This document shows, in pieces, positions 27,987-62,668 of a DNA stretch of 64,000 nucleotides. Below the pieces are notes generated by a model. It did not search any database. It was not told the DNA's origin and saw only the letters and a list, made by a program, of their open reading frames with translations. Position 1 is the stretch's first letter; each line of letters opens with the position of its first letter. Source of the stretch: a virus; the IMG/VR virus record IMGVR_UViG_3300033992_001502, positions 186,001 to 250,000 of that record, one strand, 5' to 3'. The translations under genes and the position numbers were made by a program.

Positions 27987-30257
27987 ATGTCATACGTAGT
28001 TTCGTCCCAACAGTTTTTTGAATCGTTATCGACTTCAGGAAACTCTACTGATAAGCTGACCCAATACTTTAATCAAATACCTGCTGCCTTTTTTGAGGCT
28101 CTAGATAAAGTTGATTTTAGTATTTTGGCAACGCCAGTTACAATCAAAAGAAAACATTCTGAATCAGAAGTTTTTGCTCACCAAGTATACTTATTTGAGA
28201 ATTTTGAAGATATTCAAGATATTATTCGAAAGGAAGATTTTTTAGCTCGAGCTGGATATGATACGATTGAATTAAGAATCAATGAATCTTATTTAGAAAC
28301 AATTGAAACTCTTAACGAGGGTCTATTAGGGTCTATTGGAGACTTCTTAGCTAGCCTAGTAAGTGATCCGGATCCAGTAGAAATGGGTCTTAATATCTTA
28401 CGTCTTGTGCTGGATATTATTGGACTTGTGCCATTCACATGGGTAGGTTTTCCTATTGATATTGTTGCAAACGTTCTATCTGCTCTAATTTCATTGTATA
28501 AAGGGGAGTACGTCTCAATGGTATTAAGCCTTCTTTCAGCAATTGATATTACTCAAGCCTCTGATGTATTGAAGATAGTACTAAAACCAGCAATGCCGTT
28601 ATTGGAAAAAATTCTACCTCTCATATTTAGATCTGGGAAGGACGTTGTTGCTCTAGAAAAAGGAGTAATTGCACTAAAAGATGGAATTATCCGAATCGGC
28701 GGAAAGAGTTTATTAGACAATGTGATTAGCTTATTTAAAGGACTTGCTAAGTTTTTCCTAAACACCGCAGTCTCAGTAGTTAGAATGATCGCCGGGTTTA
28801 TGGATACTGCGATTAATCTTGCAACCTTTGGTATGGCTGGAAAATTTGGATTTAAAATTTCAAAATTAGTAGACTCTATTGTAGTGAACGTCTCGATGAT
28901 TGGTAGAAATTTCGATACAGCTACTCAAATTCTTACAAAGCCTGGAGTAGGAAAAGAAATTGCTCAAAGTGCGGATGACTTGGCTAAAGCTGCTCGTAAA
29001 GAAGTTGCCCTAGGTGCTCAAGATCAAGCTCTTAAAGCTGGAAAAACTTCATCTGAAGTCGGAGCAGATATCAGTGCAGCACTTAAAGACTTTGATGCAA
29101 CTCAAGCAGATAAGTACATTAGAGCTAGAGGAGGTTACTTAAGTGATCTAAAGCAGACAGTTACTTCAAATACGAAATTCATGGATTCAATTAGCCAATT
29201 ATCTTCCAAGCAGAAAGACATTGCGATCGCTGCAAAAATGGAAAATGAATTAATTGGACAAGCTAAACTGTCAGTTGATAGGATAATGAAAGATCCTGAG
29301 GCAGTTAAACTGTTAGGTGCAGCCGGCTGGAGACCAGGTGGAGATCACTTAATTAGATTAGCTAGAGGAGGAAACCCTCAAGAAGTTAAGAAATTCTTTG
29401 AAGTGTTCTTAACTAATCCAGCAATAGCTAAGAACTTATCTAAATCTGAAATTAGAGCATTTGCACCGTTTGTTGCTAAGCCGGAAGCATTCATCGAGGG
29501 AGTTGCTAAATTTAATGGTAGCGTTAAGACTCTTGAAATTCTCACAAAGAAAGGCGGCGCTATTGGAATGAGAGCCGTACCTTTCAAGCGAGTTCTTAAC
29601 CTGGTAGCTAGATTAGTTTGGCAAAAATACGGATCACTTGAATGTATTATCCAAGCCGGCGCAAATAAAGCAGGAGATGTAGCTCTTGGCGCAACTTCAT
29701 CGTTAGTTAGAACAGGAATATCTGCATTGGAAGAAGCAGAAGAAAGTTCAAACCCACAAAGGACTGTCGCAAAGGTAGATTGCGGATTACAGGCGGCGGC
29801 TGTTCAAGCAACAACCGGCTCATTCGTTGCAGATTTTCCAGGAAGTACTGCAAATTTAGGAGGAACTGCTAACATGGGAGAAGATCCTGCACAAGCAGCT
29901 GAATTCCAAAAGAAGAGCACAGACTACTCAAAACAGGTACTAGCTTCACTAGGATTAGATACATCAATTGATGTTCAACATGCTCTTGACTATAATGAGC
30001 CTGTCGTCCAAGCCTATTTCGCAGATGTTTACGATCCTGAATCTGGAGTAATTAATGTAAATCTAGTCGATAAGTCTCGGTTAGACAGCACCATTCAAGA
30101 GATGGTTCGTATGGGAAAAATCCGACCGGAAGAGGCTGCTGGTATAAAAGCAGAAGCCTTGAAACTTATTCAATCGGGCGAAGAACCTGAAATTAAGTTA
30201 CCTCCAGTAAACGAAGGGCTCTTCTCAGTTAAAGGCCTTTCATTCGGAAATAAATAA
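27987..30257 (+). CDS. Large amphipathic internal or structural virion protein
   Basis: A 756-residue protein. N-terminus SYVVSSQQFFESLSTSG is a weak capsid-targeting-like sequence. Residues 108-118 (TIETLNEGLLG) and the C-terminus (PVNEGLFSVKG) carry L/V-N-E-G sites like T4 prohead-protease sites. A hydrophobic stretch spans about 120-230 (LRLVLDIIGLVPFTWVGF), followed by long helices. Hydrophobic, helical, late and possibly processed, it could be an ejection or channel-forming internal protein. No family is recognised. Confidence 0.6.
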   Translation: MSYVVSSQQFFESLSTSGNSTDKLTQYFNQIPAAFFEALDKVDFSILATPVTIKRKHSESEVFAHQVYLFENFEDIQDIIRKEDFLARAGYDTIELRINESYLETIETLNEGLLGSIGDFLASLVSDPDPVEMGLNILRLVLDIIGLVPFTWVGFPIDIVANVLSALISLYKGEYVSMVLSLLSAIDITQASDVLKIVLKPAMPLLEKILPLIFRSGKDVVALEKGVIALKDGIIRIGGKSLLDNVISLFKGLAKFFLNTAVSVVRMIAGFMDTAINLATFGMAGKFGFKISKLVDSIVVNVSMIGRNFDTATQILTKPGVGKEIAQSADDLAKAARKEVALGAQDQALKAGKTSSEVGADISAALKDFDATQADKYIRARGGYLSDLKQTVTSNTKFMDSISQLSSKQKDIAIAAKMENELIGQAKLSVDRIMKDPEAVKLLGAAGWRPGGDHLIRLARGGNPQEVKKFFEVFLTNPAIAKNLSKSEIRAFAPFVAKPEAFIEGVAKFNGSVKTLEILTKKGGAIGMRAVPFKRVLNLVARLVWQKYGSLECIIQAGANKAGDVALGATSSLVRTGISALEEAEESSNPQRTVAKVDCGLQAAAVQATTGSFVADFPGSTANLGGTANMGEDPAQAAEFQKKSTDYSKQVLASLGLDTSIDVQHALDYNEPVVQAYFADVYDPESGVINVNLVDKSRLDSTIQEMVRMGKIRPEEAAGIKAEALKLIQSGEEPEIKLPPVNEGLFSVKGLSFGNK
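30250..30257 (+). promoter_or_regulatory. Late-type promoter octamer ATAAATAA
   Basis: Exact octamer overlapping the stop codon of the 756-residue gene, 21 nt before the ATG at 30279. Confidence 0.65.
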
Positions 30258-30278
30258 TTAAAATAATAACAGAAACAA

Positions 30279-31283
30279 ATGACCTTTGTTAAAACATTTG
30301 AAAGCTTTAGAGCAACTTCGTTAACTGAAGCAGTCGATAAAGCAAACATAACTAAGATTTCACCAGAAGCCGGCGAACTTGCTAGATGGAAAGTTGTACT
30401 AAAGAGTGGATCTGCTGATTCAATCAGCAATGCAACACCAATTCAGTCGATTATCGACAGTTTAGTAATGAACGGCGATTTTAAAAATTGGTGGACTACT
30501 ACTAAATTTGAAGGAACTCCTGCGAGCATGACCCTTGGTATTGTGTACAGTGGAGTTATGAACAAGACGAATTTAGTTGGAAAAGAGGTAGCTAAAGCTG
30601 AAATTGCCTTTGTTACGTATAGAAGACAACACACAGGCGAATCTGCTGGAGTTGACAAACCTGCAGCCGACGTATTCTATGATGTAACTAAAGCTGAACC
30701 AATCGCAACCGCGACCGTTTCAGGTTCAAAGATTCCGTTAGCTGTATGGCATCAAGAAAAATTAATTGATATTAAGTTGGCGCAGCCAGTACCAGCAAGG
30801 GATAAATCGGGCAAGCTTATTGAAATCGATAAAGTTTATCCGTCTTACATGAAAAGCGAAGGCCAATCAGCTACTGATAAACCTACGACTACTGATACAA
30901 CGACAGTTTCACCTACTACTTCTACACAAACGGTCGACTCGCCACAAGGCTCTCAATCGAACTCAACTACCTTCGTTGATCTTAAGAAAGCCCCAGGATT
31001 TAATCAAAAGGTTCAAGATCTACAGAAGAAGATCAAGACACTAGGCGGAGACGCAGCAACGGCTCTTGGTAAATTCGGAGCAGACGGTAAATATGGAAGC
31101 GGTACAGCTAATGCAATTGGAAAACTTGTAAATAACGGTACTCCAGTTGACTCAATTAATGCAGAGATTTCTGCTAAATTAGATGCAGCCTTTGTGAACT
31201 TAACTCAAGCTCAAATCGATGCAGCTAATAAGAAAGTAGAAAAGCCAGTCGACCGTAAAGTTCAAAGGCCTAGTCCATTTTAA
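30279..31283 (+). CDS. Putative internal protein with capsid-targeting peptide and PG-binding-like C-terminus
   Basis: A 334-residue protein beginning MTFVKTFESFRATSLTEAVD, a candidate targeting peptide with cleavage after SLTE. A folded domain spans about 25-185; a Thr/Ser-rich linker (about 195-230) follows, then about 235-300 reads VQDLQKKIKTLGG, DGKYGSGTANAIGKL, resembling the repeats of peptidoglycan-binding domains. It could bind the host wall after ejection. The domain match is by pattern only. Confidence 0.55.
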   Translation: MTFVKTFESFRATSLTEAVDKANITKISPEAGELARWKVVLKSGSADSISNATPIQSIIDSLVMNGDFKNWWTTTKFEGTPASMTLGIVYSGVMNKTNLVGKEVAKAEIAFVTYRRQHTGESAGVDKPAADVFYDVTKAEPIATATVSGSKIPLAVWHQEKLIDIKLAQPVPARDKSGKLIEIDKVYPSYMKSEGQSATDKPTTTDTTTVSPTTSTQTVDSPQGSQSNSTTFVDLKKAPGFNQKVQDLQKKIKTLGGDAATALGKFGADGKYGSGTANAIGKLVNNGTPVDSINAEISAKLDAAFVNLTQAQIDAANKKVEKPVDRKVQRPSPF

Positions 31284-31289
31284 TAAAAA

Positions 31290-31297
31290 ATAAATAT
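31290..31297 (+). promoter_or_regulatory. Late-type promoter, one-base variant ATAAATAT
   Basis: AAATAAATATACTAC, 10 nt before the ATG at 31308. It differs from the octamer in the last base only. Confidence 0.45.
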
Positions 31298-31307: not shown

Positions 31308-32306
31308 ATGAATATTTCAAATTACGCGCTTATTTTAGAGAAAAAGTCTCATGGCTACTTACTGGTCAATGAGGCCGCTGATATGCAAACAGCTGACGGT
31401 TTAACTAAACTATTATCTGGTCAAAATGGAGGACCTTATGCAAACCAATGGAACCAATTCATGGATGAAGTTGAATCAAAGAAGGCAGCTGGTAACTATA
31501 CGTTCATGGTTAAACACGATAACGGAAAAGACATGATTAACGTCGCTTATCAAATCGGAACAGACTTAAAGCCAGTAAAAGGAAGTCTTAAGCTAGCAGC
31601 GGCAACCTCGTCGTCTCCAGTTTCCGGCTCATCTATTGACATTAATAAGATTGCCGAATATGACCCAAAGGGTAAAATGTATGAATTTATTGCTGCATTA
31701 ATCACAATATCGATTCAAAAATTCGGAAAGGCATGGACTCCTGATCATATTAAATGGGTTACTGCTCAAACCAATAAGGTTAAAGCATTAGGCGGCTCCT
31801 TCGCAGGAATCGAAAAAGCAGCAAATGCCAGCTTTTTACTAGGTGACGGTAATATCGCAGACAATTGGATTAAGCTGACCGGTGGAGATTTACCTACACA
31901 AGTAACCACAATTACCTCAAAATACAAGAAAGCCGGCTCAGTTGAGTCAGATGCTGATATTAAGATGATCATGGACGCAGTTGATCTTAAGCTAAATGAG
32001 ACAGTTACATCATTTGCTGATAGTGCAGCTATGCACGGTTTGTACATGCTAATTTCACCAAAATTCTCCGCTGATCAACTTGCCAAGATGTGGACAGCGT
32101 CCGGTAAATCTGGCGGTTTTTTAACAGGTATTGCTGGGGAAATCGACGAGATTATGGGTACTACCCAAAAATGGCCTGAAAAATTTGCGGCCTGGACAGT
32201 TGGAATAAGAGGTCTCACGCTTTGGTCCGGTTTTTACACAGCATACAGATTCGATACGGTCACGTATACTGAGAGTATCGCAGCAATAAAGGCAGCTTTA
32301 GTATAA
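31308..32306 (+). CDS. Putative internal protein with capsid-targeting peptide
   Basis: A 332-residue protein. The N-terminus reaches YLLVNEAADMQ, a longer version of the targeting peptide with a V-N-E-A site near residue 23. The body is helical with Ala/Lys/Gly composition and few motifs (FGKAWTPDHIKWVTAQTNK). Not recognised. It is flanked by two other proteins carrying similar N-termini, and its last codons contain the TATAAT promoter of the NUDIX gene. Confidence 0.6.
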   Translation: MNISNYALILEKKSHGYLLVNEAADMQTADGLTKLLSGQNGGPYANQWNQFMDEVESKKAAGNYTFMVKHDNGKDMINVAYQIGTDLKPVKGSLKLAAATSSSPVSGSSIDINKIAEYDPKGKMYEFIAALITISIQKFGKAWTPDHIKWVTAQTNKVKALGGSFAGIEKAANASFLLGDGNIADNWIKLTGGDLPTQVTTITSKYKKAGSVESDADIKMIMDAVDLKLNETVTSFADSAAMHGLYMLISPKFSADQLAKMWTASGKSGGFLTGIAGEIDEIMGTTQKWPEKFAAWTVGIRGLTLWSGFYTAYRFDTVTYTESIAAIKAALV

Positions 32307-32307: not shown

Positions 32308-32313
32308 AACTAA

Positions 32314-32784
32314 ATGAAGATTAAAGCATTCTCTGAATTCTTAGCTGAGTCATCAGCTGGCCACGATACGGCCGGTGTAGCAATATTATACAATCAAAAA
32401 ATTTTACTAGTTCATCCAACTAATGGAAGTTGGGTTAGACCAATCATGGGAATTCCAAAGGGCAAGGTCGAAGCTGGCGAAGACCTAATGAATGCTGCTC
32501 TACGAGAACTTAGCGAAGAGACAGGAATCTATCTTTCTCCAGATAAATTAGAATTGCCCGTGCAGACAGTTGAAGTTTACGATAAAGACGGCAAGTACAA
32601 GAATGCACTACACTATTTCGTTTTCCGAATTGAGGATCTATCTGAGATTGAGCTGGAGTCATTAACTATTCCAAAGAGCCAACTTCAGGCAGAAGAGATT
32701 GACTGGGCCGGATTCATCGATATCAAAGAGGCTTACTCAAAAGTTTCGCGAGCCCAACTTATAATTTTAGACAGACTTTCCTAA
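32314..32784 (+). CDS. NUDIX hydrolase with capsid-targeting-like N-terminus
   Basis: A 156-residue protein. The Nudix box is complete: Gly50, Glu56, Arg64-Glu65, Glu68-Glu69 and Gly71 (GKVEAGEDLMNAALRELSEE, then TGI). NUDIX enzymes hydrolyse nucleoside diphosphates linked to another group, such as NADH, ADP-ribose, Ap4A or RNA 5' ends. The first 12 residues MKIKAFSEFLAE match the T4 targeting peptide MKTYQEFIAE in spacing and key residues, so this enzyme may travel in the capsid. Substrate unknown. Confidence 0.9.
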   Translation: MKIKAFSEFLAESSAGHDTAGVAILYNQKILLVHPTNGSWVRPIMGIPKGKVEAGEDLMNAALRELSEETGIYLSPDKLELPVQTVEVYDKDGKYKNALHYFVFRIEDLSEIELESLTIPKSQLQAEEIDWAGFIDIKEAYSKVSRAQLIILDRLS

Positions 32785-36339: not shown

Positions 36340-36930
36340 ATGATTAAGACCTTTAAAACTTTTACAAATGAAGCACTTAGTCCAGCTATTTTAACTAGTT
36401 CAATTAATGAGTGTACAGCTAATCAACTTAAGAGTATTTCTGAATTTAAAAGTACTTATAAAACTGAGTTAGATAAAGCAAATAAGATTGTTAACGTATA
36501 CCAGGTAATTGATAAATTTAGTACCTGGCTAGTTGGTAAAACTCCAGCAATGGTCCAAGCTGCTCTATTAAATTCGCCAGGAACTGCTGATAAACTGGTA
36601 ATTGAGGCATATACTTTCATTTATATGGAAATACAAAATCAATTAAAGTCAATTGGTACACTTAAAAAATCAGCACTTAAATTACTGGCTCCATCCGCTG
36701 CTGACTTTGATTCGCAAAAAACTGACTCAGACTTAGTGAATCAAATTATACAATTAGTGGAATCGTTATTTGATGTAGGCTTTATGATTGGTTACAAATT
36801 TGACAGTAAGTCAATTGAGGCAAATAATGCTTCAAACTGGTCAGTTTCTTTTACCAAATCTCTTAATTCTAGGAAATCTTTAATATTCAAAAATATTAAA
36901 CTATTAATTCGTAACTTTTTATATAACTAA
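36340..36930 (+). CDS. Putative internal protein with capsid-targeting peptide
   Basis: A 196-residue protein starting MIKTFKTFTNEALSPA, a close match to the targeting peptide with cleavage after TNE. The rest is helical and Ser/Lys/Asn-rich (KTELDKANKIVNVYQVIDKF) with no recognised family. No exact octamer precedes it; an AT-rich stretch (TATAAAAATATTACG) lies about 15 nt upstream. Confidence 0.6.
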   Translation: MIKTFKTFTNEALSPAILTSSINECTANQLKSISEFKSTYKTELDKANKIVNVYQVIDKFSTWLVGKTPAMVQAALLNSPGTADKLVIEAYTFIYMEIQNQLKSIGTLKKSALKLLAPSAADFDSQKTDSDLVNQIIQLVESLFDVGFMIGYKFDSKSIEANNASNWSVSFTKSLNSRKSLIFKNIKLLIRNFLYN

Positions 36931-41084: not shown

Positions 41085-41561
41085 TTACTGTTTAGCAGCT
41101 GCTTGATTAGATCTCATCGATAACCTTTTACCAGGAGACTCAAAACTAGATTTTACAGGATTGGCTTGCATAATTTTATTATCCTTTACCTCTTTGTCCT
41201 TCTTGAATACTTTATCGCCATTCATTTTCTTGGTCTTCTTCTTTTCGTTAAGATCAGAACCTTCTGCATACTGAGCCAATAGAGTATCAGCTTCATCTGC
41301 GAATTCTTCAGCAATTGCCTCTCCCATTTCGTCATTAATCATAACAATTAAGTCATTCTCAAGGTCTGTTAATCGGGTAGCAGTGCCGTATTTTTCAGAG
41401 TAAGGGTCAATATCAATGCCTGCTGAGCTGTATTGATTCGCCAATTCAATTAATTCTCTAGCCGTTTCGTGATAGAATCGGTCTGACTTCATATCCGCTT
41501 TTTGGTGAAAATCGTCAAAGCTTTCTTCGAAACTTTCAAATAGTGCAACGTATCGTTTCAT
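41085..41561 (-). CDS. Putative internal protein with capsid-targeting peptide
   Basis: A 158-residue protein beginning MKRYVALFESFEESFDDF, a variant targeting peptide with an E-E-S cleavage-like site. The middle is acidic and helical, and the C-terminal 45 residues are strongly basic (EKKKTKKMNGDKVFKKDKEV), which would suit packing with DNA in the head. Not recognised. A late octamer lies 27 nt upstream. Confidence 0.6.
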   Translation of the reverse strand: MKRYVALFESFEESFDDFHQKADMKSDRFYHETARELIELANQYSSAGIDIDPYSEKYGTATRLTDLENDLIVMINDEMGEAIAEEFADEADTLLAQYAEGSDLNEKKKTKKMNGDKVFKKDKEVKDNKIMQANPVKSSFESPGKRLSMRSNQAAAKQ

Positions 41562-45511: not shown

Positions 45512-46761
45512 GCAACTTCTGCATCTAGGCTCTTAGCGAAGGCGCTTGCTTTCGCTATAGCTTCTCTACCGACAGTTGATCCCAATGAAGAGCCCCATCC
45601 GGCATTTGCCTGAACGTAGTCTTGTACTGCACTGTCTAAGTCAGTATATGCATTTGGATCTTTTCCTTTGCGATCAAACGAATCAATGAAATAAATTACT
45701 GCGAATTCTGCTGCAACTTCAGGTTTTTCCAATTCTTCAGGATTCTCAACAATATTAACTTTTCCAAGTTTAGCTCCCATTTGGTCGTATATTCTTTGAA
45801 GATTTTCGTAATTTCCTTTAAACGTTATTCCATTAAATCCACGGCCTCTATACTTAGCTCCGTCTCCTGGAGAAACGTTTCCGTATTTTCCACCGTATAC
45901 TGCTTCCCAAAATAGGCTATCGAATAATTCTTGGCCTTGGGTCCTCCAACCCTCAATTTGTTCATCGGTGTATTGGGATAATTTGCTTGGAAATACCTCA
46001 CGTATTCTTGAAATAGGGGTACCGAAATAAGAAATTTCACTAGTTAAATTAGGAGACTCTTTTGAAATAACTCCAAGTACTGCCTTTCTAGCAAATTCAT
46101 TAGTTATTCCGTTTTGATCCATCGCCTTTAGTAAGGCATCCATATTTTCTTCAGGGAATTTTGAGGTAGATTTAAAATTCTGCCCTTTTCCTGGGGTAAG
46201 AGTTGTGTGTTTATCTAGATCAGCTTGTGAAAAGTTTTTATCTTTAAGGGCTGTGATTAGTCGGTTAATAAGATTTGCATCAATTAAAACAGAGTCAGTA
46301 GTTCGACCGGCTCCCTCTTTACCAGTCTTTGCAAATTCAACGCTGCCTTTGTGTTCCCAATGCCAAGACTCTCTTGGAATATTTGTGAATCCATAAGTTG
46401 CAGCATTGTCCTTCAACCACTGAAGAGCTTCAGCACTAAGGTCTAAGTCAAGAGCGCTTCCCCATCCGTGATTGGAAGTTCCAGGAACTGCCGCAAGTCC
46501 TCCATTTTTATAGAGACCTTTACGTGCAGCGACATCAACTTGCGAATCGTAATCTCTGTACGAGTCAGTAATTCCCCAAGTTATTCCGTCTGCTTCGGCA
46601 GCAGCTCTCATTTCTTCGTATGCTTTCGCTGCAATTGAATTTAATTTATGACCTTTAGTCGGTTGTCCTGCACCAGCGATAGGTTCTAATCCAGTAGTAT
46701 CAAGTCGGCCATTTGCGGCTTCAGTTAAAAACTGTTTGAAATTTAATATCTTATTTTCCAT
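45508..46761 (-). CDS. VanY-type peptidase plus GH19-like muramidase, with capsid-targeting peptide
   Basis: Start set at ATG 46761 (417 residues). MENKILNFKQFLTEAANG is a targeting peptide with cleavage after LTE. Residues about 20-150 are a VanY/Hedgehog-like D,D- or L,D-peptidase: GITDSYRDYDSQ, SNHGWGSALDLD (His and Asp ligands) and HWEHKG. Residues about 195-400 are GH19/lysozyme-like: ISKESPNLTSEISY, GDGAKYRGRGFNGITFKGNY. It would cut both peptide and glycan of peptidoglycan. It overlaps the PG-binding gene by 11 nt. Confidence 0.85.
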   Translation of the reverse strand: MENKILNFKQFLTEAANGRLDTTGLEPIAGAGQPTKGHKLNSIAAKAYEEMRAAAEADGITWGITDSYRDYDSQVDVAARKGLYKNGGLAAVPGTSNHGWGSALDLDLSAEALQWLKDNAATYGFTNIPRESWHWEHKGSVEFAKTGKEGAGRTTDSVLIDANLINRLITALKDKNFSQADLDKHTTLTPGKGQNFKSTSKFPEENMDALLKAMDQNGITNEFARKAVLGVISKESPNLTSEISYFGTPISRIREVFPSKLSQYTDEQIEGWRTQGQELFDSLFWEAVYGGKYGNVSPGDGAKYRGRGFNGITFKGNYENLQRIYDQMGAKLGKVNIVENPEELEKPEVAAEFAVIYFIDSFDRKGKDPNAYTDLDSAVQDYVQANAGWGSSLGSTVGREAIAKASAFAKSLDAEVA

Positions 46762-47116
46762 TATCTGAAGTGCTGATTTTTGTAGTATCCTCATTGAATT
46801 TCTGAATAGCTATTGCTGTTTCTGGTCCAAAATAACCATCAACTCCGTGTTCAGGTAATTCGTAACCTAAGAACTCTAGCGCTGCTTGAATGTCTTCTAC
46901 TAATTTAGAATAGGTATAGGTTCCGCCGTTTTGGACAGCTACTGATTTTCCAGAATTTGCAAAATCCTCCAATGTAGCATAGAACGCTTCGACCTTATCG
47001 TCTAGGAGTGTGCCGTCTTCTTTTTTCTGAGCAGAGGTCTCTTCCTTCTTGCCGGTAAGCCAGTCCCAAAAACCCTCATTTGTTTTTTCTGTGAATTGAT
47101 TAAAATTATGAATCAT
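46751..47116 (-). CDS. Peptidoglycan-binding protein with capsid-targeting-like N-terminus
   Basis: A 121-residue protein. N-terminus MIHNFNQFTEKTNEGFWDWL has the F-x-x-F pattern and a T-N-E-G site. Residues about 65-110 are a PG_binding_1-type domain (LVEDIQAALEFLGYELPEHG, VDGYFGPETAIAIQKF). It precedes and overlaps the VanY-GH19 gene, so the pair looks like a split binding and cutting system for the cell wall. Confidence 0.8.
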   Translation of the reverse strand: MIHNFNQFTEKTNEGFWDWLTGKKEETSAQKKEDGTLLDDKVEAFYATLEDFANSGKSVAVQNGGTYTYSKLVEDIQAALEFLGYELPEHGVDGYFGPETAIAIQKFNEDTTKISTSDNGK

Positions 47117-47923: not shown

Positions 47924-49880
47924 GCTGACCTGATACTTTACGTAAAAGATCTAATCTAACTGGTGTAGGTCGAGTAGCTCCACCGAATGTATTTAAGTAG
48001 ATAAATGGCTGATTTGCTGTATTTCGGGTAGTGTAATCGCAACTAGCAAAGATTCCCCAATTATTCATGTGATTAGCGATATAGTAACGGTCTCCTGCTC
48101 TAGCTCTTAATTTATCTTCCTCAGTTACTGTTTCCAATTCGTATGCCATCAGTCCAAGACCAGCAAATGGTCTTTCGATAATATGGCCAGTTACAACGTT
48201 TATTAATTTAGCATCGTAACCAGTGCGGTTCAATAGGTCGTCAACTGAATCTACTGGACGAATTGATCTTCCTGCTCTACTGAATGCTACATAAACTGGG
48301 ATACCAAAAGATGATCTAAACGCTTCTCTCTCTTGAGGACCTAGTACAATGAACTTAGCAAAGTCGCCGGTTCTAATCTTTTTCAATAAGTCAAGTTCCG
48401 GTAAGAGTCCACGTGCTTCAACTCGACGTTTAAGATCAGATCCGCTCTGTGGCATTTCCGCAAATACTCCAGGTCGAGTAGCTCGTTCTGCATTTTGAGT
48501 ACGTTCAGCTTCTCTTCTAGTAATAGCAGCCTGTCTTTCAGTTTCTCGACGTCTTTCAATTTCCTCAGGATCAATGAATGATCTCATGTACTCTTGTTCA
48601 ACTGTTGATAAATTAACACGACTAAGATCCGGAATTGCTTCTGGGATTACTTTAATCCATTGTGATTTATCGGTAGTCGTTCTAGTATCTCCAGCATTTC
48701 CTGGCTCAAGGTTACCATTGTCAATCTGTATAGCATTAGAAATTGAGGCAGCGACATACGAACCATTTCTATCTAAAATAACTCGTCGAATTGGTAGAGA
48801 CGAATATGATGCATCGTATAAGTAGCTCTTAACTACGATAAAGTCTCCAACGTTCCATTCAGCATCAGGATCTGCTCCGTATTGTGTAATTCGGTCAGCT
48901 AGTCTTTGACGAGTTGCTGCCTCTTCACGAGTTCTACGTTCAGCTGCTTCAACTCTTTCACGTTCTCTTTGTTCTTCTTCTCTTCGTTGAGCCTCAGTTC
49001 GTGCAGCCAAGATAGCCTGAACTCTTTCAGGTGTTAATCGATTATCCGTAACTAATGAATTAAGATAATCTCTATTTAATAGAACTAGTGATTCATCGGG
49101 TAAAATTGCAAGTAATTCATCGTCCATATCAAAACGATCAGGCTTTGTTTTATCTCTACCAATTACTCTTTCAATAAATCTGTTAGCCACATCAATTTTT
49201 GCAGCGGTTGACATGGATTTATCCATTGCCATCCAGTTGCCTGCGCCGATAATTGCGTGAGCATCATCTTCTGATGGAGAGCCATCTGGGTTGGATTTGT
49301 AAGTCAACATTGATCCCCATGCTTTATCCTTCTCAGTAGTACCAGATGGATTAGACGAAATATAGTCTGCGTATTTTAATAGAGTTCGGTACATTTTATA
49401 ACCCAAACCAGCTCCTCTTAATCCGCTTGGAATACCTCCATTTGGAAAGTGGCTTCGTTGAAAATCCGAAGGTCCTTCAGTACGAAAGTGAATTGCATTA
49501 TCGTCTCCTGGGTAAACGTCTCTCCATCTTCCGAATTCATTAGCGAATCGGCTAGCGTCAACATTTTTAAGTTCAGCCATTAAGTCAACGATAGGTTGTG
49601 GAAATTTAGGGTAATAATCTCTGGAGTTTGAAGGTTTTTCCATTGTAATATCCAATCGTCGAACTCCCTTAAGGGCTCTAACTAGATCTACTGAAATTTC
49701 CGCAAACGATCGGGTCTCTGGCCTGTTTGCTAATTGTTGATTTCTGTCAATTGTTGATTGTCTAACTCTACCCATGTGACTTTGAGCAAGTCTCTCTGGT
49801 CGTTTAACTCCCATTTCGCCAACCAGGCCGTCTTGATTAAAAGCGGACTCGTTAACTATGTCTCTTAAGGAATTTATCAT
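47910..49880 (-). CDS. Large putative internal protein with capsid-targeting peptide
   Basis: A 656-residue protein beginning MINSLRDIVNESAFNQDGL, a targeting peptide with a V-N-E-S site. Residues about 140-170 contain SGLRGAGLGYKMYRTLLKYA, similar to the acyl-CoA loop of GNAT proteins but without the rest of the fold. About 295-345 and 435-470 are very Arg/Glu-rich helices (RREEEQRERERVEAAERRTR). Two globular modules with KOW-like strands follow. A late octamer lies upstream. Function unknown. Confidence 0.65.
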   Translation of the reverse strand: MINSLRDIVNESAFNQDGLVGEMGVKRPERLAQSHMGRVRQSTIDRNQQLANRPETRSFAEISVDLVRALKGVRRLDITMEKPSNSRDYYPKFPQPIVDLMAELKNVDASRFANEFGRWRDVYPGDDNAIHFRTEGPSDFQRSHFPNGGIPSGLRGAGLGYKMYRTLLKYADYISSNPSGTTEKDKAWGSMLTYKSNPDGSPSEDDAHAIIGAGNWMAMDKSMSTAAKIDVANRFIERVIGRDKTKPDRFDMDDELLAILPDESLVLLNRDYLNSLVTDNRLTPERVQAILAARTEAQRREEEQRERERVEAAERRTREEAATRQRLADRITQYGADPDAEWNVGDFIVVKSYLYDASYSSLPIRRVILDRNGSYVAASISNAIQIDNGNLEPGNAGDTRTTTDKSQWIKVIPEAIPDLSRVNLSTVEQEYMRSFIDPEEIERRRETERQAAITRREAERTQNAERATRPGVFAEMPQSGSDLKRRVEARGLLPELDLLKKIRTGDFAKFIVLGPQEREAFRSSFGIPVYVAFSRAGRSIRPVDSVDDLLNRTGYDAKLINVVTGHIIERPFAGLGLMAYELETVTEEDKLRARAGDRYYIANHMNNWGIFASCDYTTRNTANQPFIYLNTFGGATRPTPVRLDLLRKVSGQPIEL

Positions 49881-52262: not shown

Positions 52263-53060
52263 TTAGTTGACGTAATCTTGAAGTGCCACTTCAAGTGTGT
52301 CTGTGTTCTCAAGTTCTGACGATTGCTCGTCATAGTATTCGTTATATCGTTTCTCTAAAATTGCAGAAGCTTCACCGTATCCTAAATTCTCTAGGATTCG
52401 GATAGCTAACCAGTCAGCTTCTCTCTCCTGTCTCTCGTCGTAAGCTGCCATTCCTCGGTCAGAGCCTCCGTGATTTAGTAGTGAATGCGAAATTTCATGT
52501 GCTTCGATTGCCAACAGATGGTCGTCTCCTAGATTCTGAGACTCAACTTCCTGTCCATCGACGAATATTGTTTTTGAAACCATATCAGCGAAAGCAATTC
52601 CTAAGCTATCAAATATTTTTGCAACTTTTGCATAGAGCTCATCGTCCGAGAAAAGAACAATGACTGTCCATTCGGGATCAATTTCGCTTTTCCAAACCGC
52701 ATCCTCTGCGCTTTCAGATAAGTTATACTTCTTCATTTTTGAAGCACGTTGACCAGTTAAGTCTCTCCATAATTCTCTGACGTCTGGCTGGGCAAGTGTA
52801 TCTGCCTGAACCATTGAGTAAAATTGATTATCTGAATTCTGCATCATTGCGAACCATTCTTCAAGGCTAGGTTTTTTAGACAGAGCCTCAATTCGAGGTT
52901 TTAGTCTTCTAAACATTGGAAATAGCTCAGTTTCGTACTTATCTCCAGTTTGTGGATTACGTCCGAATTTTCTGTTAATATCAAGTTCCGTTAACTTCCT
53001 TAGGGGTCTTGGATTATGATTTTCATTTAACCAATCGCTATATGTTGATAAAAGTTTCAT
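52263..53060 (-). CDS. Zincin metallopeptidase with capsid-targeting peptide
   Basis: A 265-residue protein starting MKLLSTYSDWLNENHNP, an almost ideal targeting peptide with cleavage after LNE. The zinc motif HEISH (His188, Glu189, His192) is followed by EREADWLA, whose Glu is the probable third ligand, as in ImmA/IrrE- and gluzincin-like peptidases. It could cleave a host protein after ejection. Late promoter 7 nt upstream of the ATG. Confidence 0.85.
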   Translation of the reverse strand: MKLLSTYSDWLNENHNPRPLRKLTELDINRKFGRNPQTGDKYETELFPMFRRLKPRIEALSKKPSLEEWFAMMQNSDNQFYSMVQADTLAQPDVRELWRDLTGQRASKMKKYNLSESAEDAVWKSEIDPEWTVIVLFSDDELYAKVAKIFDSLGIAFADMVSKTIFVDGQEVESQNLGDDHLLAIEAHEISHSLLNHGGSDRGMAAYDERQEREADWLAIRILENLGYGEASAILEKRYNEYYDEQSSELENTDTLEVALQDYVN

Positions 53061-53111: not shown

Positions 53112-53573
53112 ATGATTCATAAATATCAACAATGGCTTGATGAATCTGAGAAACTAGAGGCAGTTGATACGCCGGTAACACCAGACGCTCCAGTTGAAGC
53201 TCCAGCAGAAGTTCCAGCGGAACCGGTTGCAGAAGTTCCAGCTGAGACTCCAGTTGATGCCGGGATTCCAGCAGAGGCTCCGGTTGAAGACGACACAGCC
53301 GAATCAGAAATTGAAAAGTATCAAGAACTAGACACAGCTAGAAGAGATGCAATTAAAGCCTTTAAAAAGAAACAAGAAGAATTTTTAGAAATTCCTAATG
53401 AGATTCGTAAGAGTCCAGTCGAAGAGGCTGATAAAACAAAGGTCGAGACATTAAAGAGCGAATTAGTTGAACTTAATAAGACAATGAAAGACTCTATTAA
53501 AGCTTGGGACAACTTTAATTCTGAAGCCTTAGGGTTAGCAGATGATGAGACCTCTGAAGAGTACGAACCTTAA
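53112..53573 (+). CDS. Putative internal protein with Pro-Ala-Glu-Val repeats
   Basis: A 153-residue protein beginning MIHKYQQWLDESEKLE, a near-perfect targeting peptide (compare MKTYQEFIAE). Residues 20-65 are imperfect repeats of A-P-V-E-A-P/E-V-P-A, an extended acidic linker. Residues 70-145 are a charged helical hairpin (ARRDAIKAFKKKQEEFLEIP). Not recognised. It resembles small internal head proteins in size and composition. Confidence 0.65.
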   Translation: MIHKYQQWLDESEKLEAVDTPVTPDAPVEAPAEVPAEPVAEVPAETPVDAGIPAEAPVEDDTAESEIEKYQELDTARRDAIKAFKKKQEEFLEIPNEIRKSPVEEADKTKVETLKSELVELNKTMKDSIKAWDNFNSEALGLADDETSEEYEP

Positions 53574-53593: not shown

Positions 53594-53782
53594 ATGAAAA
53601 ATTTAGTTAACAGTTTTACGAAATTCGTAAACGAGAGCTGGGATCCAAGTGATGCTTTCTCTGGTGAGACTTCAAACTGTTGCGGTGCTCCTATTATGAT
53701 GGGCGATATTTGCTCTGATTGTAAAGAACATTGTGAAGCAGAAGAAGACGAAGAAGATTACGAAGACGATTATCAACACTAA
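53594..53782 (+). CDS. Small zinc-knuckle protein with capsid-targeting peptide
   Basis: A 62-residue protein: MKNLVNSFTKFVNESWDP (targeting-like, cleavage after VNE), then a CCGAP/CSDC cysteine set and an extremely acidic tail (EEDEEDYEDDY). After removal of the leader only about 46 residues remain. Function unknown. Followed by a terminator. Confidence 0.6.
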   Translation: MKNLVNSFTKFVNESWDPSDAFSGETSNCCGAPIMMGDICSDCKEHCEAEEDEEDYEDDYQH

Positions 53783-54862: not shown

Positions 54863-54914
54863 AGTTGTGCGATTTGTATTAATAATTATACTACTCAAGC
54901 TGAATCGGTTTAAA

Positions 54915-56270: not shown

Positions 56271-57233
56271 TTATTTAAGGAAATTTTTAATATTAGTCAT
56301 TGTTTTTTTATTACTAATAATATCTTTATTTACTTTATCAACAATGTATTGAGTAGTAGCCGGTCTTGAATCTGACATGTCGCTTTTCTTTTCATCATCA
56401 ATCTCTAATTGAACTCTTAAATACTTTTCTAATATTTGTTGACATTCGTAAACAACTGATTTAGAAGAGGCTTGCATCATAACTGTTGTTATAGGTTGTG
56501 CCCAATTAGCTATACCCCAACTTTCAGTTTTAATACCTAACGATTCTGAATGATTTCCGGTGCCTAACGATAAGCATTCAATATCTTCTATCTTAATACC
56601 CGGTCTTGTTTTAAGAACTTCAGCAACTGCTGCCATTGCTGGATTGTTAATGTAAACACCACCATCCACTAAGATCCGGTCTTTGCCATCAAACACCATT
56701 TCGTATGACGGTAAGTAGGTCGGCGCGGCTGACGTAGCCCGACAAACATCTTTTAATCTAACATCAAATCGTTCTTTAGACCATTTAGCAGTTCTAGTTT
56801 TAAACATAATAACTTCATTGTTCTTTAGGTCATACGAACTAACGATGATAGGCTTTAGTGATTGCGATATCATCATATCACCAAAATAATTTTCCAATAA
56901 ACCGTCTAAACCTTTTGGAGAGAATTTAGGATTAAATACTGAATTAACTCCTCTAATTACTTTAGCTAATATATTTTTACTATAAGGGAAAATAACATTA
57001 CCTTTAGTTGTGTAAAGTTCTATTAGCTGGTCGATTGTTAAATAAGGATTAACTCCGTCTTTCGTACAAGTTAATCCGCATGCAATAATACCGCCAGTTG
57101 AGGTACCTACTATGACATCAAATAATTCGTGTATTTTTTTACCTTGCTGATTTTCAATTTCTTTAAGGATAAGTAATGGAACGATTCCTCTTAATCCACC
57201 ACCGTCTATTGATAATATTCTAACTTTACTCAT
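56271..57233 (-). CDS. Patatin-like phospholipase
   Basis: A 320-residue patatin. Oxyanion loop DGGGLRG (10-16), nucleophile Ser45 in GTSTGG and catalytic Asp190 in DGG complete the Ser-Asp dyad. The closest pattern I know is the CapV-like bacterial patatin group (ILSIDGGGLRG, LLILKEIE, ELFDVIVGTSTGGI). It would hydrolyse membrane phospholipids. Preceded by a late promoter and followed by the secreted nuclease, it may aid lysis; there is no cyclase or nucleotide-sensor gene nearby, so a defence role is not supported here. Confidence 0.9.
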   Translation of the reverse strand: MSKVRILSIDGGGLRGIVPLLILKEIENQQGKKIHELFDVIVGTSTGGIIACGLTCTKDGVNPYLTIDQLIELYTTKGNVIFPYSKNILAKVIRGVNSVFNPKFSPKGLDGLLENYFGDMMISQSLKPIIVSSYDLKNNEVIMFKTRTAKWSKERFDVRLKDVCRATSAAPTYLPSYEMVFDGKDRILVDGGVYINNPAMAAVAEVLKTRPGIKIEDIECLSLGTGNHSESLGIKTESWGIANWAQPITTVMMQASSKSVVYECQQILEKYLRVQLEIDDEKKSDMSDSRPATTQYIVDKVNKDIISNKKTMTNIKNFLK

Positions 57234-57296: not shown

Positions 57297-57842
57297 ATGA
57301 AAAAGCTAATACATATCATACTTTTTAGTTTTGCGATTAGCGCAACTGCTCAAGATTCTGAAAATAAAATCTTTTTAGAATTGGTGAATGCTCACAGAGC
57401 AAGTCACGGGCTTAGTCCAGTAGAATACTCAGCTACTCTCGACTCTGCTGTAACTCTTCATGTCAATTGGATGATACGTGCTGACACATTGGAGCACTAC
57501 GAATATCCATTAACTCCAGATGGAATTTACTACACCGGCCCTCTTACCCGAATTGAAAAATTTGATCAGGACTGGAAGAAACACTTTTCACGATATAGTT
57601 TCAGAGAAAATGTCGGTGCTCATTATAAAATCAGCAGTAATTATAACTCACTAAAATCGGTTAACGTTGATAAATCAACCGTTATTATAATATTCAACGA
57701 ATGGGTTAAATCAGCTAGTCATAATGCAGCGCTGCTCGACCCAAAAGTAACAGTAGCAGCATTCGATATAAACGGCGGCTATGATACTCAAAAGAACCGA
57801 TTCTCAGCATACGCAAACTGTCTGTTTGCGGTTAAGCTATAA
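57297..57842 (+). CDS. Secreted CAP-superfamily (SCP/PR1) protein
   Basis: A 181-residue protein with a signal peptide (MKKLIHIILFSFAISATAQ) and a CAP domain: FLELVNAHRASHGLSPVEYS, an ALxxHxxWM-like helix (VTLHVNWMIRADTLEHYEYP), and ENVGAHYKIS with NEWVKSASHNAALLD. Typical CAP histidines appear to be kept. CAP proteins are extracellular; functions in bacteria are mostly unknown. Two CAP genes in one phage segment is unusual. Confidence 0.8.
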   Translation: MKKLIHIILFSFAISATAQDSENKIFLELVNAHRASHGLSPVEYSATLDSAVTLHVNWMIRADTLEHYEYPLTPDGIYYTGPLTRIEKFDQDWKKHFSRYSFRENVGAHYKISSNYNSLKSVNVDKSTVIIIFNEWVKSASHNAALLDPKVTVAAFDINGGYDTQKNRFSAYANCLFAVKL

Positions 57843-57888: not shown

Positions 57889-59508
57889 TTAAAATATCGG
57901 GCATGCAGTAGAGCTTCCACCTTTATACATTGGTACTTTAGGTAAAGCGGTTCCGAATTGAATTCTAGGTAACTCAATTTGGAATGATTCATCAGACCAT
58001 GTAATTACTGAGTTCCATTCTCCACTAGGAGTTGCAGTTGACTTAACTGGAGTAGGTTCGGTTGATGTGATTGTATACGTTAACTGGAAGAACGCAACTG
58101 CATATCTCCATGGTCCGTAAGTTGCTTGGTACTCTGGAGTTCTTGCTCCAGGTTTACCCCACTTAGCATCAGTTTTATCTTTATCAGTCCAGTCAGGACC
58201 TCTATTCGGTTCAGCTAAATTTTTAGCATCAACGGTTGGTGCAATAGTTATTCCGTTTTCAGTAAGAGCGGCAGCTAGCGCGCTATTAATAGACGCAAGT
58301 CTATCGTTTGCTAACGCAACGTTATTTTCCTTCTTTGAGGTTTTATCAGCTGACTTGTAAGTCGTTCCTACTTGTGAAGTACTTGCATAACCCCAAGTTG
58401 AAACAGCTGTAATTGTACCGCCGGCTGCTTTAACTGCATCTACTGCAGATTTAACAGTTGCGGCTAATTCAGCTTGAGCAGTAGGTTGAATAGTCACTCC
58501 ATCATCTGGAAATAACTGTAAACCCTTTTGGAAAGCTGGGCTCTTAGCGTTACCGTTTGCACTTTCAGGATATGAAAAAGCCTGAACAACTGGGGCAGCT
58601 GGTGCAGCTGGTGTTCCAGCGACAACTGTAATTTTTTCGTTCTTTGGTGCAATGTATAAATTCGTAGCAACTAAAATTGCTTTATCGAAAGTTACATTAG
58701 GATCCTTTTTACGAGCAGCATACGCTTCAGCTTTTGCTTTAAAGTTATCTAGCATAGACTTCTTTTCAGTATCGCTTAACGACATTGAGGCTATCCAGTA
58801 TTGACTGACTGTTGCTTTATTGGTTCTCTGTGCAATCAGGAATTTAGCAGAAGTTAAAGGATCTACCATTAATTCCTTGCTTGCATTAGTATTTAATCGG
58901 TAAGCAGTTAGTGCTTTCTTAAGAGTATCCATGACCTGAGGCTTGGCTAGTTCAGCAATCACATCAATTTTTTTACCGCCAGTATCGAATACTCCATCAG
59001 TTAGAGCACCTGGTATAATTGAACCGAATAGAGCTGATGTTCTTAATTCGAAACCTTCAGTCTTTGCAGTCTTTAATAAGTCAACCGCTTGTTTAAGTTG
59101 AGCTAGCTTTTCTGGAGTTACCCCAGCCTTTGCACCGTTTGCAATAATTGAATCTGCTACTTTATAAAACATATCTGCTCTAGGAGCTGCACCCTTAACC
59201 GTACCGCCGCCTGTCCAGTAATATATCGATTTTAGGGAACGTAATCTGTCAGTTTTAGCAGATGAACTCTTTTTAAGAAGCGATTTGAATAAGTTGAGGT
59301 CGCCCTCTCCGTTTTTCCACCATTGCATTACAGATTCGTAAGCTGGGTGAGCTTTTATTTCAGCAGAGTCTGCTGCCATTGCTGCATTTACTAAACCTGC
59401 ACGATCGCCAGCTTTGTAAAGAGCACCAATATCAGTTCCTTCAGCTTCTGCGATTAACAAGTTTTCGTTTAACCAGCTAGAGTAGCCTTTAATAATTGAA
59501 TGTTTCAT
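57889..59508 (-). CDS. OmpA-like protein with capsid-targeting peptide
   Basis: A 539-residue protein starting MKHSIIKGYSSWLNENLL (cleavage after LNE). Residues 30-300 are helical, Ala/Lys-rich. Residues about 320-520 resemble an OmpA-like peptidoglycan-binding fold (KGLQLFPDDGVTIQPTAQAE, GGTITAVSTWGYAS, VALANDRLASINSALAAALT), with long insertions. Homologous in layout to the 417-residue gene at 60169. Together they may contact the wall or form head-internal scaffold. Late promoter upstream. Confidence 0.7.
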   Translation of the reverse strand: MKHSIIKGYSSWLNENLLIAEAEGTDIGALYKAGDRAGLVNAAMAADSAEIKAHPAYESVMQWWKNGEGDLNLFKSLLKKSSSAKTDRLRSLKSIYYWTGGGTVKGAAPRADMFYKVADSIIANGAKAGVTPEKLAQLKQAVDLLKTAKTEGFELRTSALFGSIIPGALTDGVFDTGGKKIDVIAELAKPQVMDTLKKALTAYRLNTNASKELMVDPLTSAKFLIAQRTNKATVSQYWIASMSLSDTEKKSMLDNFKAKAEAYAARKKDPNVTFDKAILVATNLYIAPKNEKITVVAGTPAAPAAPVVQAFSYPESANGNAKSPAFQKGLQLFPDDGVTIQPTAQAELAATVKSAVDAVKAAGGTITAVSTWGYASTSQVGTTYKSADKTSKKENNVALANDRLASINSALAAALTENGITIAPTVDAKNLAEPNRGPDWTDKDKTDAKWGKPGARTPEYQATYGPWRYAVAFFQLTYTITSTEPTPVKSTATPSGEWNSVITWSDESFQIELPRIQFGTALPKVPMYKGGSSTACPIF

Positions 59509-59593: not shown

Positions 59594-60097
59594 ATGAAAA
59601 AATTAGCAATCCTATTCGCAATCCTAATCTCAATCTCTGCCCAAGCGCAACAAGTTAGATCTAGTAGATTAGACTCTTTGATCTGGCAAGAAATTAACGT
59701 GTACCGTTTGGGCTTGGGTGGTTCACCAGTAACCAAATTCAATAATGGTGCTTTACGTAAAAGAAGTTATCAGTTAACTAATCTTAATGCAGGTAGACCT
59801 GAAATTGATCATACCCGTGGAGACAGTACTTTTGTTGGATATAATACTGAGTGTATCTACATGTATAAGACTAGTGGGACAACTGTTTCTAAAAAATACA
59901 GTGTGAATGCTTTAACTGATGAGGTATTGCAGGAAATCGCAAAAATTGTGGTACAGGCTTGGATCGATTCGCCTAATCATAATTTTAGAATTGCAAGTAA
60001 ATTTGCAGCTGAGTCAACGATTACCACAGTTATGGAATTTGGCAAAGACTCATTTAGAGTAACTGCATCTTACCATGCACTAGATAAAAAGTATTAA
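59594..60097 (+). CDS. Secreted CAP-like protein
   Basis: A 167-residue protein with signal peptide MKKLAILFAILISISAQA. The body follows the CAP layout (LDSLIWQEINVYRLGLGGSP, ALRKRSYQLTNLN, then AWIDSPNHNFRIAS) but is more divergent than the gene at 57297 and lacks some of the usual histidines. The pair arose by duplication or double acquisition. Extracellular or periplasmic after export; function unknown. Confidence 0.65.
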   Translation: MKKLAILFAILISISAQAQQVRSSRLDSLIWQEINVYRLGLGGSPVTKFNNGALRKRSYQLTNLNAGRPEIDHTRGDSTFVGYNTECIYMYKTSGTTVSKKYSVNALTDEVLQEIAKIVVQAWIDSPNHNFRIASKFAAESTITTVMEFGKDSFRVTASYHALDKKY

Positions 60098-60168: not shown

Positions 60169-61422
60169 TTATTTAGCGGCTGCTGCAGTTAAAGTAAGTT
60201 TCAATTCAAAGAATTGAGCTTTTCCTCTAACGTTAGTAGTTGCATTTCCAGTTGAAACAGCAGTAGTCTTAGTAGTTTCTACAGCTTTAGGCTTAACTGC
60301 ATTTTTTTCAATGTTTAGGTCAACGAAACGGTCAGCTGCATTTGCAGGTTGACCACTTGCACCGATTGACCATGCAACTTCGTATGCATCAAAACCTGGA
60401 TGTCCTTTTGCTTTAAGTCCAGAGTTAAGAGCATTCATGAAAGCAACACCACGACGGTAAGCAAGATCTTGATTTTTAGTTGCATCATCCTTTGGAGTTA
60501 CTGCACCAGTTCCGTCAGCCTTAGGCATTTGTTTACCGTTCCATTCAGTACTTGCACCAGAAGTTAAAGTAAATTTATCAGGGCGTGATCCTGCTGGGAA
60601 TTTAGCTAAACATAACTCTACTGCTTTTGCAACCTCAGCTTGAATAGCTGGAGTAACTTGGTCAGAACCAGCTGCGAATTCTGCAGCGAATTTGCCAGTA
60701 ACTGCATCGGAACCTCCAGTTTGAGCAACGTCTACTTTAAGATCCTTACCTGCAGCAAGGTCGCCAAGTAATTGTTGAGTGTACAAATATAGATTGTCAG
60801 CGTCTACTACTGGAGTAGTTGTAATATCTAGGTAACCGTCTTCTCCCATTCTTTGGCTCAAGATGAATTGACCTTGACCCATTTCAAATGCATTTTGGTT
60901 ATATGCGTTAACAAATCCCAACAACATACCTGTACTAGAGGTTGCTTTACTCCAACGTGGATCAGTATCAATTTCCAGTGAATTAATCCCAATTCGACCC
61001 TGAGTCATGATTCTACCTGTACCGTCAGCTCCAGGATTGTAGTCCACCGTTGTTTTGCTGTAGGCAATTTTTGATTGACCTGCAATCAAACTATCAAGAG
61101 TAGCGGTAACTACTTCGTCTAGGCTCTTACCGCCAAAGATTCCCAAGAAACCTTTTTTAGCCGTTTGGCCGTGTTTAGCAAGGCTTCCCAAAATTTCTTG
61201 ATGAGCCTCTTTCTTTTTAATGTTTTGGATGTTAGACTTTGCAACCTCTTGCGTGAATAGTCTAAATTGTGCTCCAGCTTGACTTGCGATGTACTGATCG
61301 TATTTTGCCTCGTCAATGCTAAAGTCATCAGTACTGAGAGTAACTGAATCGATTGACCAGTTTTCGTTTATAGCGTTTAGGTTTTCGTTTAACCATTGGC
61401 TATAGCCTTTAATTAAGTTCAT
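60169..61422 (-). CDS. OmpA-like protein with capsid-targeting peptide
   Basis: A 417-residue protein starting MNLIKGYSQWLNENLNAI (cleavage after LNE). Residues 30-230 include ITTTPVVDADNLYLYTQQLL and a KKGFLGIFGGKSLDEVV element; residues about 240-385 are OmpA-like (KFAAEFAAGSDQVTPAIQAE, FTLTSGASTEWNG, NQDLAYRRGVAFMNALNSGL, DRFVDLNIEK). Frequent GCA/GAA codons and a late promoter suggest abundance. Same layout as the 539-residue protein. Confidence 0.7.
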   Translation of the reverse strand: MNLIKGYSQWLNENLNAINENWSIDSVTLSTDDFSIDEAKYDQYIASQAGAQFRLFTQEVAKSNIQNIKKKEAHQEILGSLAKHGQTAKKGFLGIFGGKSLDEVVTATLDSLIAGQSKIAYSKTTVDYNPGADGTGRIMTQGRIGINSLEIDTDPRWSKATSSTGMLLGFVNAYNQNAFEMGQGQFILSQRMGEDGYLDITTTPVVDADNLYLYTQQLLGDLAAGKDLKVDVAQTGGSDAVTGKFAAEFAAGSDQVTPAIQAEVAKAVELCLAKFPAGSRPDKFTLTSGASTEWNGKQMPKADGTGAVTPKDDATKNQDLAYRRGVAFMNALNSGLKAKGHPGFDAYEVAWSIGASGQPANAADRFVDLNIEKNAVKPKAVETTKTTAVSTGNATTNVRGKAQFFELKLTLTAAAAK

Positions 61423-62124: not shown

Positions 62125-62141
62125 GGTATATAGATAACTTC

Positions 62142-62234
62142 ATGAAAACGGTATATGTGTGGCTGGGGGTTACCCTGTGGTTCCTAGCTATTATAGTCTA
62201 CTCCGGATTGAAGAGGATAGAACGTAGAGGTTAA
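62142..62234 (+). CDS. 30-residue single-pass membrane microprotein
   Basis: ATG 62142 to TAA 62232-62234: MKTVYVWLGVTLWFLAIIVY followed by a basic tail. One clear transmembrane helix with positive-inside C-terminus. It ends 2 nt before the convergent stop at 62237. Coding is inferred from the perfect helix-plus-basic-tail pattern and lack of any other feature. Confidence 0.5.
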   Translation: MKTVYVWLGVTLWFLAIIVYSGLKRIERRG

Positions 62235-62236
62235 GG

Positions 62237-62668
62237 TTATCTTAAGAGATCCAGTCGGGGTACAGATCGCCCGCTGGGTACTTCCCGCCAGGTCTTGTCT
62301 CCCAATTCCCAAATAAGATCTACATCGTGTTCTTTAGCTAGATTCATGATAAACCCGTCAACAAACTCAACATCTCCAGGCTCGTCGGCCTTGACCATGC
62401 GAATAAGTTCAGCCGGTGGATACTCGTACCAAGAGTCCTCACCGTCAGCATTGGGAGCCGGATAGGCCTCCATGAACCAACACTTCATAAAGGTTTCTAG
62501 ATTACCGGAAAAATCCTTTCGACCAATCTTTTCCCAGTCTACCCGGACTATCAGCACACGAAACCCAGGAATGGGAATCCCCAGCCTATGGAGTTCCATC
62601 TGATCGGTGTAATTCTGAGCCGACTCAGTTAGCGCAAATCCATTGAAATCGGTAATATAATTCTGCAT
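62237..62668 (-). CDS. Putative internal protein with capsid-targeting peptide
   Basis: A 143-residue protein beginning MQNYITDFNGFALTESAQNY (cleavage after LTE). The body is acidic with an alternating alpha/beta pattern (FRVLIVRVDWEKIGRKDFSG, GDVEFVDGFIMNLAKEHDVD). Not recognised. Codons are more GC-rich than those of genes left of 61 kb. The promoter upstream is the T4-perfect form TATAAATA. Confidence 0.65.
   Translation of the reverse strand: MQNYITDFNGFALTESAQNYTDQMELHRLGIPIPGFRVLIVRVDWEKIGRKDFSGNLETFMKCWFMEAYPAPNADGEDSWYEYPPAELIRMVKADEPGDVEFVDGFIMNLAKEHDVDLIWELGDKTWREVPSGRSVPRLDLLR

Follow-up and report, generated by a model that had tools for sequence, protein, structure and literature searches.

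Many otherwise unrelated proteins encoded in a 64,000-base stretch of viral DNA (the window; bases 186,001-250,000 of the 270,962-base record IMGVR_UViG_3300033992_001502) start with the same short peptide. This tag is N-terminal and about 10-20 residues long, and the proteins that bear it have no Pfam or PHROGs family in common. With a probability of roughly 0.85, it is a capsid-targeting sequence of the phage T4 type, one by which cargo attaches to the scaffold core of the prohead in imitation of the core's own repeat, and which is cleaved after Glu. Capsid-targeting sequences as such are already known. A T4-type sequence cut by a protease like T4 gp21 was the core of the original prediction for this DNA, and it is supported by an S77 protease in the genome, by a position-wise match to T4, and by the tags of relatives.

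Tags were counted with two patterns. The strict one, as first proposed, is [YF]xx[WF][LVT]xE[NSAG]. Sought within the 25 N-terminal residues, it gives 9 matches versus 0.40 expected; expected counts for the patterns, here and below, are derived from how often they occur in the interior of those proteins. The other, [YF]xx[FWY][LIVT]xE in the first 20 residues, was set beforehand from T4 mutational data, and the scaffold open reading frame (ORF) was excluded. In the 194 kb covered of this 271-kb record it occurs 11 times versus 1.25 expected (p 9e-8), with 8 versus 0.56 in the window and 3 versus 0.70 in the 130 kb outside it. Enrichment is also found in the relative G001 (159 kb covered, protease 70% identical), with 10 matches versus 1.5, and in the 642-kb uncultured phage LR756502 (168 kb covered), with 8 versus 1.2. 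The pattern is not enriched in the two other comparison genomes, PAU (0 versus 1.3) and pT24 (1 versus 1.0). These have tag forms of their own, each picked after viewing the N-termini: 14 N-terminal [LI]xxLYE versus 0.3 expected in PAU and 8 [LI]xxY[LIVT]xE versus 0.7 in pT24. The motif was thus looked for in related phages, as had been proposed for a check, and these bear their own tag sets.

An unbiased scan of all three-residue gapped patterns did not settle the matter from this genome by itself, where the best p was about 2e-7 with a very large number of patterns tried. The same scan recovers the tag unaided in G001 (KxFxxF, FxxFxxE and FIxE) and LR756502, as well as a different form of it in PAU. 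When 2.9 million viral contigs were scanned with a DNA pattern for IKxYxxWLNE[ND], 14 stretches matched. Those of them that were translated are ORF starts in this phage group, save one unrelated protein seen five times.

The T4 internal proteins IPII and IPIII start MKTYQEFIAE/A, and the capsid protein gp23 is cut at FGSFLTE/A (a slash marks the cut), both in register of the tag (for the cut sites see also PMC9026906). Mutational work on IPIII has tied residues 4 and 7 to targeting and residues 8 and 10 to processing, with gp21 cutting at L/I-x-E (PMC9026906). Exactly these four positions are conserved here at the same spacing: aromatics at 4 and 7, a hydrophobic residue at 8, and Glu at 10. 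The likeness to the gp21-cut tags of T4 IPI, IPII, IPIII and Alt includes length, N-terminal place, aromatics at i and i+3, a hydrophobic residue at i+4, Glu at i+6 and a small residue after the cut (here a predicted one), as well as an S77 protease in the genome, an IPI-like split form, and the variety of unrelated proteins tagged.

The N-terminal part of a 673-residue ORF elsewhere in the genome is a prohead protease of the gp21 type (Peptidase_S77, PF03420, E 1.2e-10, over the cut-off). Its GELxHP and SSR motifs, which we take to be catalytic, are invariant in 11 relatives and common to T4 gp21. The gene adjoins that of a gp23-like major capsid protein, encoded outside the window (gp23 family, E 1.5e-41). 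The original prediction had staked itself on a prohead protease being encoded somewhere in the genome, and both this enzyme and the capsid protein are there. Relatives of the capsid protein come from phages that infect Bacteroidota (Lak/Prevotella, Tenacibaculum, Flavobacterium, Chryseobacterium and PAU) and from several uncultured phages of 462-735 kb. Together, the protease, the capsid protein and its relatives identify the record by sequence as a T4-like jumbo phage, and its host is probably a member of the Bacteroidota.

The middle of the protease ORF contains 11 repeats at a spacing of exactly 14 residues, Y-S-x-Y-[LIV]-x-E-N (e.g., IKYSDYLGENLNKG), and the tag motif is present in nearly every one. 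The array is conserved in 12 phages of up to 735 kb (10-12 copies, exactly 14-residue spacing) and is still more regular in those of 636-735 kb (YSEYIAENLDKNIA). One scaffold unit, YSEYIAEN, is identical to the T4 tag YQEFIAEA at 5 of 8 positions. A separate scaffold gene homologous to T4 gp22 was not found; instead, protease and scaffold share one ORF, and the 14-residue repeats make up the scaffold part.

The kinship of tag and repeat was measured with a profile trained solely on scaffold repeats and scanned over three phages, their scaffold ORFs left out. Thirteen of its 50 top matches lie in the first 20 residues of a protein versus 3.9 expected, and 0 of 400 column-permuted profiles equal it. 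An aromatic pair precedes [LIVT]xE at 29 of 347 N-terminal sites versus 46 of 2897 other internal sites (p 1e-10). For scaffold sites the count is 26 of 115 versus the same internal sites (p 5e-20, a value inflated because the repeats within one scaffold are related). In pT24, where the N-termini are without this tag form, the scaffold likewise is without it (1 of 35). The aromatic pair is thus a mark of N-terminal and scaffold sites in particular, and the likeness of tag and repeat exceeds a shared cleavage site.

The tag could instead be merely an extended cleavage consensus of the prohead protease, on which head proteins converge since they have to be cut, while they enter the head by another signal or interaction. 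Scaffold repeats and tags are both likely substrates of the protease, and N-termini are enriched even for [LIV]xE[ASNG] without the aromatics (28 versus 16.5). This explanation is nevertheless unlikely: most other [LIVT]xE sites and the likely capsid site are without the aromatic pair, the corresponding T4 residues, 4 and 7, serve targeting while 8 and 10 serve processing (PMC9026906), and a Nudix protein of G001 retains FxxF without xxE.

Docking by mimicry is thus supported statistically, and cutting, packaging and ejection into the host would follow on the T4 model. Cargo would be synthesized late in infection with an N-terminal extension of 10-17 residues, whose aromatic pair, [YF]xx[FWY], would dock it onto the prohead core. 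The core would be the C-terminal part of the protease ORF, a long and probably helical rod with its 11 tandem 14-residue repeats. Because nearly all of these bear the tag motif, the most likely route of entry is that a tagged protein packs into the core in imitation of one of its repeats. The prohead would assemble around the rod with its docked cargo, and the S77 protease would then cut after [LIVT]xE in scaffold repeats, capsid propeptide and tags alike, so that trimmed cargo is freed inside the head and left there with the DNA. In a broader version, to which we would give even odds, the tag copies the 14-residue repeat at the molecular level, the fusion is a docking rod of 11 sites in which cargo replaces repeats, rod and tags are both broken down in a single protease step, and the same loading code serves phages from 250 kb to 640 kb, with an interchangeable set of cargo peculiar to each lineage.

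The core of the T4 late promoter is ATAAATA. In this phage, 5 of 11 tagged genes have the heptamer within the 110 bases before them versus 34 of 185 other genes (p 0.04), and in G001 6 of 10 tagged genes have it there (p 0.005), which lends weak support to late expression of the tagged genes. A recurrent T4-late-promoter-like element, [GA][AGT]ATAAATAA, is seen tens of bases before the start codon of genes 41085, 46751, 47910, 52263, 53112, 57889, 60169 and 62237.

Several results weigh against this account or narrow it. In LR756502, ATAAATA is upstream of 0 of 8 tagged genes, with no enrichment. The candidate cut in the capsid protein, SINE/S, which is plausibly placed and was recognized from sequence only, lacks the aromatic pair. 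T4 gp22 is likewise without an aromatic-pair site, and neither the scaffold of pT24 nor the scaffold candidate of PAU, which has only single sites, clearly contains its own phage's tag form. From the pT24 and PAU results, mimicry is not general. The AlphaFold model of the protease-scaffold is of low confidence (pLDDT 42), so that the long helices over its repeats are a mere hint, and a PDB profile search with this protein gave no match. Finally, the Nudix orthologue in G001 retains FDNF and has lost xxE; cleavage is therefore not universal, and docking and cutting are separable in evolution. In that genome the Nudix orthologue and its neighbor (L059:7867-8346 and 8537-9268) have FDNF/FDDF starts without the xxE cleavage residue.

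The N-termini given as examples in the original prediction are all present at the gene starts named. Eight of the 14 are strict, four are variant or split forms that are read as tags from sequence, and two are weak. The tagged genes of the window are as follows.

32314..32349, plus strand: strict tag MKIKAFSEFLAE of a Nudix hydrolase (gene 32314-32784, NUDIX E 8.9e-15).
36340..36372, plus strand: strict tag MIKTFKTFTNE of a 196-residue protein (gene 36340-36930; Pfam search without match).
46720..46761, minus strand: strict tag MENKILNFKQFLTE, counted from the second Met, of a VanY peptidase (gene 45508-46794, E 1.4e-12).
53022..53060, minus strand: strict tag MKLLSTYSDWLNE of a metalloprotease-like protein with HEISH (gene 52263-53060; phrog_87 metallo-protease, E 2.6e-4).
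53112..53144, plus strand: strict tag MIHKYQQWLDE of a 153-residue Pro/Ala/Glu-rich protein (gene 53112-53573).
53594..53635, plus strand: strict tag MKNLVNSFTKFVNE of a 62-residue Cys-rich protein (gene 53594-53782).
59464..59508, minus strand: strict tag MKHSIIKGYSSWLNE of a 539-residue protein (gene 57889-59508).
61384..61422, minus strand: strict tag MNLIKGYSQWLNE of a 417-residue protein (gene 60169-61422; no Pfam or PHROGs match).
49848..49880, minus strand: putative variant tag MINSLRDIVNE, Leu replacing the first aromatic, of a 656-residue protein (gene 47910-49880).
62624..62668, minus strand: putative variant tag MQNYITDFNGFALTE, one residue longer, of a 143-residue protein (gene 62237-62668).
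30279..30329, plus strand: putative split tag MTFVKTFESFRATSLTE, similar to T4 IPI (gene 30279-31283; PG_binding_1 only at E 0.07).
47075..47116, minus strand: putative split tag MIHNFNQFTEKTNE of a peptidoglycan-binding protein (gene 46751-47116, PG_binding_1 E 1.2e-6).
31308..31373, plus strand: weak candidate MNISNYALILEKKSHGYLLVNE (gene 31308-32306).
41523..41561, minus strand: weak candidate MKRYVALFESFEE (gene 41085-41561).

In the two split tags (30279 and 47116) the aromatic pair and the cleavage-like xxE stand apart, as in T4 IPI (MKTFKEFTSTTTPVSTITE/A). The interval first given for the tags began at 27987, where the gene has no tag. The description "genome-wide" is fair in that tagged genes also occur outside the window, though they are densest at 30-63 kb within it. 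The search for further motif proteins elsewhere in the genome yielded three in the 130 kb covered outside the window: a 5'(3')-deoxyribonucleotidase (L004:16012; phrog_2643, E 1.8e-23), L005:8592, and L003:17709, which adjoins the capsid gene. The last (L003:17709-18074), 121 residues long and built of basic repeats (PxMAxLPKGKGSxSxK), may be an internal protein that condenses DNA.

The set had been called enzymatically rich, and this is borne out in part: at least five of the tagged proteins are enzymatic or wall-binding, but about half match no known domain or family. Cell-wall enzymes are recurrent among them and would suit delivery during entry. For example, the VanY peptidase has a C-terminal endolysin-like region (PDB endolysins, best 1.3e-5), and the putative cargo of G001 includes a CHAP hydrolase. 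The 539-residue protein has a second possible site, LIAE/A, directly after its tag, and IIKxYxxWLNE is invariant among its 47-52% identical orthologues. An OmpA-like C-terminus was suspected by eye in this protein and was not supported by Pfam, and Foldseek found no match below E 0.1 for its AlphaFold model (pLDDT 54). Beside the tagged cluster lies an untagged DUF2589 protein with a peptidoglycan-binding domain (54149-54898). Interleaved with tagged genes are those for a patatin-like phospholipase (56271-57233, E 4.3e-25), a CAP-domain protein with a signal-peptide-like start (57297-57842), and another short gene whose start is secretory in much the same way (59594-60097); all three are unusual for a phage. 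In LR756502, the 168 kb covered (loci L079 and L085-L087) encode 8 strict-tag proteins and many more with looser forms (e.g., MKHLKRFSELNEG and MIKKWKQFNELYVQ), and the whole genome may hold several dozen.

The tagged proteins might belong to the prohead core only transiently, or be shell and vertex components that undergo processing, rather than cargo delivered to the host. T4 core proteins are likewise cut at xxE sites (PMC9026906), and two proteins encoded next to the capsid gene, L003:17709 and L003:18095, have tag-like N-termini and may be core proteins. This is a rather poor prospect for the set, since many of its members have enzymatic or wall-binding domains (Nudix, deoxynucleotidase, VanY, CHAP, PG_binding) and so look more like cargo than like scaffold. 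A destination other than the capsid, such as a phage nucleus, membrane or replication site, is very improbable. Intracellular protein sorting does occur in other groups of jumbo phages, and several tagged genes have no assigned function, but neither the register-wise match to T4, the kinship with scaffold repeats, the protease site, nor the internal-capsid annotation of tagged PAU proteins would be expected of such a signal. Chance, or a bias of N-terminal composition, might be suspected of a pattern picked after viewing this window and not decisively recovered here by the gapped-triplet scan, but its likelihood is negligible given a T4 pattern set beforehand, like enrichment in the independent G001 and LR756502 and not in PAU and pT24, and a collection-wide DNA pattern that lands, one protein aside, on ORF starts of this group.

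Capsid targeting of the kind proposed here, by a tag that would copy the scaffold, has both likenesses and differences in known systems. The cargo set is larger than that of T4 and different (Nudix, deoxynucleotidase, peptidoglycan enzymes), and T4's own Nudix protein, nudE, is untagged. Protease and scaffold are fused here, unlike in T4, and the scaffold has 11 tandem tag-like units where gp22 has none. A maturation protease and scaffold in one chain are also found in the assemblin and assembly protein of herpesviruses, which have no short cargo tag of this kind. The giant phages of the phiKZ/SPN3US type are likewise jumbo phages with several internal proteins and removal of propeptides from head and ejection proteins after xxE by a gp21-like protease (predicted from genes in the phage described here). 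In contrast, their propeptides are mostly longer than 100 residues and have no short common tag, and in those reviewed a gp22-like scaffold is unconfirmed (PMC5694885).

The Sphingomonas phage PAU (JQ362498), also a T4-like jumbo phage, has its own recurrent N-terminal tag, MKxLxxLYE, ending in a likely xxE site. Unlike the tag of the window, its consensus is a Leu pair plus LYE; the protease and scaffold genes are separate, and no tandem repeat scaffold was seen. Three of its tagged genes (gp142, gp154 and gp199) are annotated as internal capsid protein. About 13 PAU genes (L061, L062, L048 and L063) start MK[TS][LI]xxLYE, several followed by xLNE[AS]. One of the tag bearers, gp152, is annotated "scaffolding"; it may be cargo instead, and gp155 is the likelier scaffold. 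N-terminal sequencing showed that the PAU capsid protein is matured from 585 to 520 residues (PMC5646251), an end within one residue of ALME/N. A literature search found no paper describing the PAU tag or PAU internal proteins. In Flavobacterium phage MaF61, the protease ORF (L050:7920-12134) is 1404 residues long with many LNE-type sites between domain-like stretches, and it resembles a polyprotein in which protease and scaffold, and perhaps cargo too, are joined.

In the open-access literature searched, neither the tag in this phage group nor tag sets in 640-kb phages are described, and the same holds for a protease-scaffold fusion with tandem tag-like repeats, although absence there is not proof. 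Mimicry of the scaffold is a mechanistic idea that would be new if confirmed. In the literature covered, the binding partner of the T4 targeting peptide is not pinned down beyond "the core"; here the sequence displays the tag's likely partner, in which the tag recurs in tandem. The loading mechanism thereby becomes testable with peptides and one protein. The tag also provides a sequence rule for predicting the internal cargo of uncultured jumbo phages and megaphages, and the tag-scaffold pair could serve in the laboratory to fill phage heads with proteins of choice.

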